This document shows, piece after piece, positions 15,579-19,381 of a stretch of DNA of 25,942 bases. The position numbers and the translations under genes were made by a program. The DNA lies in IMG/VR virus record IMGVR_UViG_3300015371_000151, positions 1 through 25,942 of that record. One strand, written 5' to 3'. Position 1 is the stretch's first letter; each line of letters opens with the position of its first letter. The notes beneath the pieces are model-generated. The model searched no databases, had not been told where the DNA came from, and worked only from the letters and a program-made list of their open reading frames with translations. Origin of the DNA: a virus.

Positions 15579-16283
15579 TTAATATTGCCTACCGGGAACG
15601 TTGTAGGGAACACCTGCCTTTTTAAGAATACGCTTAGGCTTTGGCAGTTTCCTAGGCTTAGGTTGCTGTTTCTTTTGAATTCTACTTAAATGCCTACGAT
15701 ACTTATTTCCCTCAGAGGGAAGATTAATCTTAGTTCCTACAGGAATCTTGCGGGGATCGACACCTTTAAGATTAGGGTTGTGATTGACGATACGATGCCA
15801 AATATCCGCATCACCAAACTTACTCTTAGCAATACCCGATAAAGTATCACCTTTCTTAAAAGTGTAGGAACTAGTAGGAACATTCCTTACAGGATTTCTT
15901 TTAATATTCTGAGGCCCACTAGGACGAGGAATAGGTTTATTGGTCCGTCCTGGCCGACGAGGTAACTTGGGAGGCTTAGGCTTCATAGGTCCCGTATTAC
16001 CATTAGGCGGAATCCTAGGAGGACTAGTAGGACCTTCACCGGGTCCAGGCTTAGTTGGAGGCGTTTGCCCACTAGGCTTAAAAGGCCCTGGATTACGATT
16101 AACTGCCCCAGCAAAAGAAACAGTAGGGGGCGCAGGCTTTCTAACTCCCTGTAAGGTAGAAGGACGTAAAGTCCTAGCCACCTGGCCCTTCATAAAACCT
16201 TGCTGGCTCTTGGCTTTCTGAAACTTTAATTGCTTACGCCGGGCATTTAACTTGGCCCTAAAGTCTAGTTCTGGGGCTGCCAT
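15579..16283 (-). CDS. LysM-containing proline-rich basic protein (234 aa)
   Basis: Residues 139-189 form one LysM domain: YTFKKGDTLSGIAKSKFGD, then WHRIVNHNPNL and IPVGTKINLP. LysM binds N-acetylglucosamine in peptidoglycan, but in phages it is also found in structural proteins as a small folding unit. Residues 35-137 are disordered and rich in Pro, Gly, Lys and Arg, and the C-terminus (193-234) is again basic. No catalytic domain is present. It lies between portal and scaffold genes rather than in the lysis cassette, so a virion role is likely: a minor head protein or a wall-contacting part at the connector. The start ATG lies inside the end of the 50-residue gene, with an AGGAAG site before it. 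Confidence 0.88.
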   Translation of the reverse strand: MAAPELDFRAKLNARRKQLKFQKAKSQQGFMKGQVARTLRPSTLQGVRKPAPPTVSFAGAVNRNPGPFKPSGQTPPTKPGPGEGPTSPPRIPPNGNTGPMKPKPPKLPRRPGRTNKPIPRPSGPQNIKRNPVRNVPTSSYTFKKGDTLSGIAKSKFGDADIWHRIVNHNPNLKGVDPRKIPVGTKINLPSEGNKYRRHLSRIQKKQQPKPRKLPKPKRILKKAGVPYNVPGRQY

Positions 16284-16410: not shown

Positions 16411-16652
16411 TAGATACCTGTAAGGTCGTCACTAACTCGAATGGCATAAACCATGTCGTTCTTACTCATTTGGTCTAAACGAGCGGCTGTATAATAAGCA
16501 GCATTAATAGCAGTAAGTCGAGTACGCATAGCAGCAACGCTAGCATAGTTAGCAGGAGTAGCAATATTAGACGAAGTAGCACCCGCCTTACCTGTGCGCC
16601 TCTTGTCAACGACCTCTAAATTCCCCCCGCTCGCAATGTCATTCTGTGCCAT
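16410..16652 (-). CDS. Small unknown protein after the portal (80 aa)
   Basis: The protein starts MAQNDIASGGNLEVVDKRRTG and has an alanine-rich helical C-terminal half (SVAAMRTRLTAINAAYYTAA, about 38-57, then MSKNDMVYAIRVSDDL). No family is recognised. It overlaps the portal stop by TAATG and the next small gene by TAATG. The tight coupling to the portal and its size suggest a head-related accessory protein. Confidence 0.75.
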   Translation of the reverse strand: MAQNDIASGGNLEVVDKRRTGKAGATSSNIATPANYASVAAMRTRLTAINAAYYTAARLDQMSKNDMVYAIRVSDDLTGI

Positions 16653-18658
16653 TATTGCATACCACCCATCTGCTGCTGGCCTTGTGGTACATTACCTGTA
16701 GTATTATCTACAGGAGCGTTGGGATCAACTGCTTGGCCCGGCAAAGGCATACTCTGAGCCATAACCGCTTGCTGATGTGTTTGTACGTGGATTTCAAACA
16801 TCATTTTAATCTCGTCAGGCAGCATTTCAAACTCAGAAGTCTTACGGAAAGAATCGTGTGTTTGAATATGTGCTTGGTGATTATCCCACGTATTAGGAGC
16901 AAATGCCGCTGCAAAAGCACCTTGTGGGTCTTCCCCAGGTTGAGGCGGGGGAATTGCTTTAATAGGTTCTCCCACCTTCATCTTCATATTCTCGCGCTCA
17001 GCCTGACGCTTATCCTTCTGTAATTCATCGTACAGTTTTTCTAGTCCACCCATTTCTAGGCGCTCTAAACCAGTCATAGGATCAATATGTCCATTATTCA
17101 TAAGGTCCATAATAACTGCTTGCCTAGCAGCCTTAGAGGTACTTAAGGCAGAGCCAGCCTCAATACGTACATCATTATTAAGGGTGGTTCCAGTAATATC
17201 ACGCTTATCAAACTCTAATGCATCAAAGGCTTGATTTTCTCCAACAACCTTAATCTGCCTAGGTGCTCCCCAAAACTGATGGACTAGTGCCAAATACTGA
17301 CGTCCGACTTTACGAATCGCTGCCTCTTGGGATTCAATTGTCGGGGCCAGTTTACTATCGTCCTGTTCTTGGAGGAAGGAAATTGCCGTAGCAGCCGTAA
17401 CCTGCGAGTTCGGCGTACCGCCTCTGGAGATTTCATGCTGTCCACTTATATCATCCATATCTGTCTGGAGAATATCTAATTCTCTCTCGACATAACTGGG
17501 GATAGGTGGCGTTTCCATAGCCTGCGGTGGGGCTAAACCAGGAGTATATTCAACGACCTGACCAGGCTCAGCAGCAATACGTTGTACCTGAACAGAACCT
17601 TTAGGAGCCATATAACGCGGACGACTCATCATATTCTTGTTCTCGATTAACTGAGAACGAGTCTTATTAAGTTCCCGCTGAATAGGAATCAAGTCGTCGA
17701 TTACTGAGGAAGGATAAAATGCTCCACTAGGTACGTGATCTAGTTTAGCAAAGGGAAACTCTTTGTGCTCGTACGGATAAGCCGGTTCCTTAGTGGTAGG
17801 ATCAGTATACATCTGAACAACTTTTTCATCAATAACAGTAACTAATCCACCGTTGGGGAAATCCTTGTGTCTATAAGGCTTGATCCATACTTCATAGACA
17901 GAACATTCTTGAGTGTTCTTGGCTCCGTCCTTTCCTACTCCTAGATAAGCCTCATTGAGAATATCGTTGGTAGTATTACTAGTCTTAGGCTTATAATCCA
18001 ACTGATAAACTCGCTGAGCATCCTCAGGAGTCATAGTAAATACATGGATAACCCAAGGCTGCTTTTCAATATCTTCCTCTAGTAAATCAGGAACGATAAT
18101 ATTAAAAGGACGAACTCGTTCAACATGAATGCAACCCTGTTGATGGGTGACGTAATCAATAGCACCGGGGTCCCAAAAAGTCTTGAGGAATCCTATTCCA
18201 CAAATACTCCGCCATAACGCTGCACGTTGTAGAGTGGTCTGTAATTCCAGGGAAGTATAAGCCGACTGGAATAATGCCTCTGCTGCCCGTGCTGCCATGA
18301 TATCACTATCATCTGTAGTGGCAGGAACCACGGTCATATTAGGCTTTTGCGAAGTTGTCTTAGAAATCTCCGTACGAATAATACCACGAATCTTATTTAC
18401 AACTATACGCACTCGCCATGGAGGTTGCTGGGGGGTAAACAGTCTGTAATTTGTTGCTGAGGTACTCGAACGGATCATCTGAACGTTCTGATTACCCCTA
18501 TAAAACGCATAGTTTAAGTACCATTGACGCTCATACTGCCCACGGGACGACTTTGCGTGCTCGTACTGCTCTAATACCCACCGTGCTAAAGCATCATTTT
18601 TCTGCTCGGCCTTATACTGGGTCAGCAGAGGGATTTCCTCTAAGGGACTCGTCGTCAC
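16652..18658 (-). CDS. Portal protein (P22-like family)
   Basis: This 668-residue protein should form the dodecameric ring through which DNA enters and leaves the capsid. The N-terminal region has YERQWYLNYAFYRGNQ (42-57) and RIVVNKIRGIIRTEISK (83-99), as in the P22/podoviral portal family. The centre contains YPSSVIDDLIPIQRELNKTR (the wing/stem region), then ISGQHEISRGGTPNSQVTAA and a long helix (AAIRKVGRQYLALVHQFW) that fits the crown-side part. The C-terminus is rich in Gln, Pro and Met (about 560-668). The start is GTG at 18658 with GGAGG five bases before it; it follows the membrane-anchored 129-residue gene by 11 bases. Length is in the range of podoviral portals. Confidence 0.93.
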   Translation of the reverse strand: MTTSPLEEIPLLTQYKAEQKNDALARWVLEQYEHAKSSRGQYERQWYLNYAFYRGNQNVQMIRSSTSATNYRLFTPQQPPWRVRIVVNKIRGIIRTEISKTTSQKPNMTVVPATTDDSDIMAARAAEALFQSAYTSLELQTTLQRAALWRSICGIGFLKTFWDPGAIDYVTHQQGCIHVERVRPFNIIVPDLLEEDIEKQPWVIHVFTMTPEDAQRVYQLDYKPKTSNTTNDILNEAYLGVGKDGAKNTQECSVYEVWIKPYRHKDFPNGGLVTVIDEKVVQMYTDPTTKEPAYPYEHKEFPFAKLDHVPSGAFYPSSVIDDLIPIQRELNKTRSQLIENKNMMSRPRYMAPKGSVQVQRIAAEPGQVVEYTPGLAPPQAMETPPIPSYVERELDILQTDMDDISGQHEISRGGTPNSQVTAATAISFLQEQDDSKLAPTIESQEAAIRKVGRQYLALVHQFWGAPRQIKVVGENQAFDALEFDKRDITGTTLNNDVRIEAGSALSTSKAARQAVIMDLMNNGHIDPMTGLERLEMGGLEKLYDELQKDKRQAERENMKMKVGEPIKAIPPPQPGEDPQGAFAAAFAPNTWDNHQAHIQTHDSFRKTSEFEMLPDEIKMMFEIHVQTHQQAVMAQSMPLPGQAVDPNAPVDNTTGNVPQGQQQMGGMQ

Positions 18659-18669
18659 TTATTCCTCCG

Positions 18670-19059
18670 CTAATGAATACCTTCATCTTCAAATTCAGGA
18701 ACAAACTGAGCACCGGGATGTTCTGCTAAGAATTGCTGCCAATCTGTTTGATAATCAGAATCCGATGTTTGTTGGGGGTTTGTCCCCAGAATCTCCGGGT
18801 TCTGACTCTGTATCATCTGGAACGCTGTCGCGTCTTTGCTGAATAAGAGGTTCGTCAGTCTCCGAATCTCCAATTCCTGACGATAATTCGTCTCCCTCAG
18901 ATAAATCACTTCCGTCGGAGTTGCCGGAACCTGTAATTGTAGATGAGGGGTTTGTGAAGGTTCCGTACTTGTTGGCTTGTACTTCCACACGTACACTACT
19001 ACCGATATTAGCAACAGTAGTAGAATTAAACTCAGGATTGAGAGGGATACCGTAAGCAT
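18670..19059 (-). CDS. Membrane-anchored protein overlapping the zinc-finger gene (129 aa)
   Basis: The protein begins with a clear single membrane segment (residues 4-25, LSILSLILLLLLISVVVYVW), followed by KYK as a cytoplasm-side or stop-transfer signal, a Pro/Thr-rich linker, a probable short coiled coil (52-73, with ETNYRQELEIRRLTNLL) and an acidic C-terminus. About 305 bases overlap the 208-residue zinc-finger gene in a different frame; the last 85 bases lie outside it. The ATG has a GGAGAG site eight bases upstream, and the stop lies 11 bases before the portal start, so it fits the operon. The function is unknown. A membrane-tethered protein next to a portal gene is odd. Confidence 0.65.
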   Translation of the reverse strand: MLTVSLSILSLILLLLLISVVVYVWKYKPTSTEPSQTPHLQLQVPATPTEVIYLRETNYRQELEIRRLTNLLFSKDATAFQMIQSQNPEILGTNPQQTSDSDYQTDWQQFLAEHPGAQFVPEFEDEGIH

Positions 19060-19381
19060 TAAGAATACTCTCCATTCCGAGGATATGAGTTTGGAGTTCT
19101 GTTACCAACTCTTTCTGTGTCTTTAATTCATCATTAAGAGACATTGCTTTATAGTCAGGCAGCATTCCTACTACCATAGCCATAGCAACGACACATTGCT
19201 CACAGAAATAAACTGCTCCTGCTAAATCTTGACGAATCTCATCAGGAGTATGCCGAGGACAGAAATCAGCATTTAATCCAGTATCCACTAATCTACGCTT
19301 ACCATATGGGATACCACAAATTAAACACTGTCCTGGGGCAGCAGGATATTGAACTAATTGAAAACGATCACCTGACGACAT
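18755..19381 (-). CDS. Zinc-finger protein with disordered acidic tail (208 aa)
   Basis: Six probable zinc ligands lie in the first 65 residues: C19 and C22 (QCLICG), C41 and H44 (FCPRH), C60 and C63 (FCEQC), followed by a hydrophobic helix AMAMVVGML. A charged coiled region (81-107, DELKTQKELVTELQTHIL) follows. Residues 108-208 are disordered and rich in Ser, Asp, Glu and Gly, and this is exactly the part overlapped by the 129-residue membrane protein in another frame. The function is unknown; zinc domains of this kind may bind protein or nucleic acid. The GGAG site before the ATG at 19381 supports the start. It lies between a charged unknown protein and the portal. Confidence 0.75.
   Translation of the reverse strand: MSSGDRFQLVQYPAAPGQCLICGIPYGKRRLVDTGLNADFCPRHTPDEIRQDLAGAVYFCEQCVVAMAMVVGMLPDYKAMSLNDELKTQKELVTELQTHILGMESILNAYGIPLNPEFNSTTVANIGSSVRVEVQANKYGTFTNPSSTITGSGNSDGSDLSEGDELSSGIGDSETDEPLIQQRRDSVPDDTESEPGDSGDKPPTNIGF

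Follow-up and report, generated by a model that had tools for sequence, protein, structure and literature searches.

The Rz/Rz1 spanin genes are the classic out-of-phase overlapping pair of phages. The locus described here lies in a virus record of 25.9 kb (IMGVR_UViG_3300015371_000151; 25,942 nucleotides, positions 1 to 25,942 of the record, hereafter called the window) and resembles Rz/Rz1 in that a small, predicted membrane-associated protein is encoded out of phase with a gene on the same strand. The differences, however, are several. Whereas Rz/Rz1 belong to a lysis cassette, the overlapping gene of the window, here denoted M, adjoins the portal gene, with the endolysin gene located at 465-1208. 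The inner-membrane spanin subunit is oriented N-in/C-out, whereas the predicted orientation of M is the opposite, with lysines and arginines following the helix; the outer-membrane subunit carries a lipobox, whereas in M a lipobox-like motif is found in 6 of 73 proteins and is not conserved. Furthermore, the partner of M, the upstream gene Z, encodes a zinc-ribbon-like protein that has no membrane helix. Topology, lipobox, and endolysin adjacency all speak against a spanin identity of M, and a holin identity is likewise disfavored, M not being adjacent to the endolysin in a lysis cassette.

Another point of comparison is phage T4, in which prohead assembly begins at a portal bound to the membrane, with help from the viral chaperone gp40 and the host protein YidC (PMC9958956, PMC9026906). 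The likeness is that of a small protein at the membrane portal, a site that for M is proposed only. The two proteins show no sequence similarity (hhalign probability 0.2%), the gp40 sequence lacks an obvious hydrophobic segment, and gene 40 lies between uvsX and 41 rather than being nested in another gene. M is not a gp40 homologue.

The same locus, with Z orthologues and an overlapping M frame, is present among the annotated hypothetical proteins of cultured phages: gp12/gp13 of Jasminevirus, phage DS1, and gp18/gp19 of phage Shocker. Full-length M is not annotated in the eight Jasminevirus records, in DS1, or in Shocker. The Jasminevirus and DS1 records omit M, whereas Shocker gp19 (locus L007, 5589-5939) is short, being annotated from an internal TTG and beginning only past the membrane helix; the conserved start, farther upstream and inside gene 18, would add that helix. 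In Jasmine (KU160650 7026-7454; NC_041875), there is no CDS where M lies, and the gene numbers skip 14, between gene 13 and the portal gene 15, exactly at M. Plausibly, M has escaped annotation because long same-strand overlaps are avoided. Overlapping phage genes are a known kind, but the Z/M family and its setting look new.

Organization of the locus

All features of the locus are on the minus strand of the window, in the order terminase (21909-20212), an acidic 243-aa gene (20134-19403), Z, M, portal, an 80-aa gene, a lysozyme-like gene, a scaffold-like gene, and the major capsid protein gene. The portal gene (16652..18658, GTG start) was identified by its match to the PHROG 156 portal (E 1.9e-68). 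Z encodes 208 amino acids (18755..19381), a call supported by the open reading frame, the AlphaFold2 model, and relatives. M encodes 129 amino acids from an ATG (18670..19059) in the +1 frame relative to Z, and the two genes share 305 nt (18755..19059). A Shine-Dalgarno-like GGAGAG (19068..19073) precedes the ATG of M with a spacing of 8 nt, and 11 nt separate the M stop (18670) from the portal GTG (18658). Two further features of the window were noted. A lysozyme/transglycosylase-like gene (15579-16283) lies between the portal gene and the scaffold-like gene (PHROG 380), and a 73-aa small hydrophobic gene (1205-1426) lies beside the amidase endolysin gene, the two forming a candidate holin/lysin pair.

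The Z and M proteins

Z consists of a zinc ribbon (residues ~8-70), a helix (76-109), and a disordered acidic/serine-rich tail (110-208). In the AlphaFold2 model, residues ~10-40 and 55-110 make up a confidently predicted domain, and pLDDT is around 50-60 for residues ~110-208, essentially the overlapped part. Of the two CxxC pairs, CLIC (19316..19327) and CEQC (19193..19204), C19 is invariant and C22 nearly so, and C60 and C63 are invariant, in a 67-row alignment. However, the pairs are absent from many actinophage-like Z proteins, including those of Brad and Shocker, which implies that zinc is dispensable. Loss of the CxxC pairs with retention of the overlapping membrane gene was noticed in L005, L007, L159, L192, L197, L208, and other loci. 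Apparent motifs of the Z tail (e.g. QG/QR and V) were not taken as evidence on Z; by reasoning from the codon phasing, they are expected by-products, in the other frame, of the M motif SKDPxxF.

The hydrophobic segment of M is the strongest among the predicted genes of the window (19-residue Kyte-Doolittle mean 3.03). AlphaFold2 places helices at residues 2-27, 50-73, 77-86, and 100-113 within an overall fold of low confidence (pTM 0.34), and the first of these is the predicted membrane helix (18979..19056), supported also by hydropathy and by topology statistics. In the topology statistics, lysine/arginine stands at 0.11 before the helix versus 2.44 after it. In most lineages, M is thus predicted to be a single-pass membrane protein, with an N-out/C-in topology and a cytoplasmic helical and acidic C-terminal part. 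Identities among the M proteins of relatives are near 20%. The alignments share a motif around S-K-D-P-x-T/A-F-Q-x-[IL]-Q, which appears in the window as SKDATAFQMIQ (18808..18840) and recurs in the loci added later.

The first-pass annotation, made from the letters and open reading frames of the window, had called a 129-residue frame (19059-18670) with a GGAGAG site, a clear membrane segment, and a stop 11 nt before the portal, overlapping by about 305 bases a 208-residue zinc gene with a disordered tail. The coordinates, the hydropathy, and the AlphaFold2 models all agree with that description.

M has no family match in Pfam or PHROGs, and Z has none in Pfam, PHROGs, NCBIfam, PDB, or viral fold libraries, except for the PHROG of which Brad gp12 is itself a member. 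No Z profile match to the known zinc-ribbon families of Pfam, NCBIfam, and PDB rises above the cut-off. Weak family, PDB, and fold matches of Z or M were discarded as single-member, coiled-coil, or low-complexity, as were the Tako8 PDB matches of the M profile, in which no stretch passes alone. No description of M was found in the literature, the coverage being open-access papers.

Relatives of the locus

A capsid protein search led to two informative IMG/VR relatives and to cultured podophages, namely, the Arthrobacter phages Brad, Adat, Jasmine, and Casserole (Jasminevirus), Cellulosimicrobium phage DS1, and Microbacterium phage Shocker. The Z/M overlap is present in all of them. A scan with the portal alignment gave 80 loci, and in this first survey, an M in the +1 frame ending at the portal was found in 82 of 82 loci with enough sequence (73 non-redundant); the medians are 221 nt for the overlap and 123 aa for M. 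Two further scans contributed 53 distinct loci, again with a +1 partner in every case, bringing the total to 126 distinct relatives, in each of which a +1 partner overlies the 3' portion of the upstream gene. Other searches were unproductive: single-protein scans of viral contigs with Z or portal as query recovered no relatives, tblastn with Z found no phage match, and scanning bacterial genomes with a portal profile yielded no relative either; the Z alignment is too diverged to serve as a scan query.

An N-terminal membrane helix is present in 109 of the 126 M proteins. The 17 others (L008, L094-L099, L101-L103, L105, L106, L110, L114, L117, L120, and L121) form a single clade (SH-aLRT 99) beside helix-bearing clades in a 102-row portal tree, obtained by a quick search with a midpoint root, which is compatible with a single loss of the helix. 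The helix-less M consists of a short coiled-coil-like stretch and an acidic tail. Profile comparison with the helix-bearing M is weak (probability 25%, 37 columns), and the main argument for homology of the two forms is therefore that they share position and frame. In L101-L103 (about 1087-2080), where Z/M pairs were identified by reading the open reading frames, the automatic detector's picks being spurious, another gene intervenes between the pair and the portal. There, the two genes appear to have moved together, and the overlap persists despite the changed gene order.

Selection on both reading frames

In the window alone, the +1 frame is open in 2.3% of synonymous Z shuffles, and the observed hydrophobicity of M is reached in 0 of 1000. 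Over the 73 non-redundant loci, codon shuffling that preserves Z predicts an open M frame in 11.6, against 73 observed, and shuffling that preserves M predicts an open Z frame in 7.6, again against 73, with the corresponding values for M in the helix-less clade being 5.4 and 17 of 17; given that the loci share ancestry, the joint probabilities are not formal and overstate significance. Nevertheless, identities near 20% imply that most M codons have changed despite this shared ancestry, and by these reciprocal shuffles, both frames are open over the overlap beyond chance. The +2 frame is open in none of the 73 loci.

Substitution patterns point in the same direction. In close pairs, differences peak at Z position 3 outside the overlap and at Z position 1 (equivalent to M position 3) inside it. 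At Z positions 1/2/3, L082 and L091 differ by 0.33/0.19/0.46 ahead of the overlap and by 0.34/0.18/0.09 within it, and in every informative TM-type pair, Z position 3 is no longer the fastest inside the overlap. Pooled over eight pairs and counted per opportunity, the transition rate for Z-synonymous changes outside the overlap is 0.192, falling about six-fold, to 0.030, for changes inside the overlap that are synonymous in Z but alter M; changes that alter Z but are synonymous in M proceed at 0.110, and those that alter both at 0.020. For M, the N/S ratio comes to about 0.23 within the overlap and 0.19 in the remainder of the gene. Purifying selection thus acts on both frames, strongly on M and weakly on the Z tail, where the rate of 0.110 compares with 0.156-0.192 among synonymous changes elsewhere than in the overlap, and stops are avoided. 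The Z tail is therefore kept open under loose constraint. Among six helix-less pairs, the substitution shift is clear in three (L105/L110, L097/L098, and L101/L102) and not clear in the others (L008/L094, L096/L099, and L114/L117); the case that the helix-less M is coding is good, but weaker than for the helix-bearing M.

Across the relatives, the median M start corresponds to Z residue ~97, about the end of the folded part of Z, and M appears to be translated by separate initiation: a Shine-Dalgarno match of at least 4 nt precedes 70% of the first ATGs of the M frame, against a background of 15%. Programmed frameshifting, which would yield a Z-M fusion instead of a separate protein and which the constant +1 frame might bring to mind, is very improbable in view of these matches, the good start codons (ATG in 66 of 73 M genes), and the stop codon that, in 55 of 72 loci, lies in frame no more than 30 nt ahead of the M start. 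That the open M frame is an artefact of Z composition or of a sequencing frameshift is more improbable still, almost negligibly likely. Out-of-phase frames can be open by chance, and for a single locus that probability is often 0.02-0.5, but joint conservation, the shifted substitution spectrum, and the presence of M in finished GenBank genomes contradict this explanation, which the relatives refute. Taken together, the sequence comparisons make it highly probable that the locus holds two genuine genes, conserved as a pair and overlapping out of phase.

The overprinting of two coding frames proposed in the first-pass annotation is accordingly borne out by the 126 relatives, the reciprocal shuffles, and the shifted substitution spectrum, and no relative breaks the membrane frame with stops. 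Three of its points need qualification. Both frames are constrained, but asymmetrically; neither zinc nor the membrane helix is universal, the constant feature among the relatives being the +1 overlap; and a functional pairing of the two products, or with the portal, is at this stage a proposal.

Codon usage bears on the origin of this arrangement. In the overlap, the codon-usage score is +0.024 for the Z frame and -0.208 for the M frame, with non-coding controls at -0.14 to -0.24, that is, the Z codons resemble those of the portal gene and the M codons those of non-coding frames. By that criterion, Z is the older gene, which suggests that M arose by overprinting of an already existing Z. The overlap is present in every relative, so the birth of M would predate the common ancestor of the sampled phages, among which no non-overlapping ancestor was seen.

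Discussion

The position of M in the head block, its N-out/C-in topology, and its end at the portal start make a role in assembly our first choice. The gene order terminase-Z-M-portal-scaffold-capsid and the T4 precedent of a membrane-bound portal aided by a viral chaperone were counted in its favor, and in many loci, the end of M abuts or overlaps the portal start. M probably starts at its own Shine-Dalgarno site where the Z fold ends, overruns the Z tail, and stops at the portal. Under the assembly scenario, its product would serve head morphogenesis as a tether or chaperone of the portal/procapsid starting complex on the inner face of the cell membrane, with Z as a possible partner and a Z-M or M-portal contact conceivable. 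That M serves portal/head assembly as a membrane tether or adaptor is quite possible, if short of probable. The lack of similarity to gp40 and of a match to any named family or fold counts against it. The helix is missing in a clade of 17, so a membrane tether cannot be essential for every relative, and the idea of direct portal coupling is weakened by the gene that separates Z/M from the portal in L101-L103.

The main rival, which we regard as rather unlikely, is a role of M in the virion or in ejection: the protein would travel inside the head and insert into the host membrane to aid DNA entry. The single hydrophobic helix, the late structural gene position, and the podovirus relatives are all compatible with such a role, short-tailed phages need membrane passage, and some podophages have small genes for internal virion proteins immediately ahead of the portal; the helix-less clade, however, would need another membrane component. 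A role in lysis or its timing, as a holin, antiholin, or spanin-like protein, is improbable. Small single-pass membrane proteins are what one would look for in such a role, and the out-of-phase nesting recalls Rz/Rz1, but the window already has an amidase endolysin with an adjacent hydrophobic protein, and the place of M beside the portal, its orientation as judged from charge, and the scarcity of lipobox-like motifs all argue against it.

Returning to the assembly role, we offer tentatively, and as doubtful in its entirety, the scenario that Z/M represents an unrecognised family in which a usually membrane-bound protein, overprinted on a zinc-ribbon gene in all sampled members of a large podophage group, gives these phages a membrane-tethered portal/procapsid step, with one clade that has lost the helix but retains the overlap. 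Jasmine, among the cultured relatives, is a podovirus (PMC5513430). Regardless of function, more than 100 diverged examples of one overlap are a rare natural series for measuring two proteins that share DNA, a series with some members that lack the zinc ligands, some that lack the membrane helix, and some in which the gene order has changed. If M does tether the portal, membrane-initiated head assembly, as in T4, would extend to podophages, the cultured members of which infect actinobacteria.
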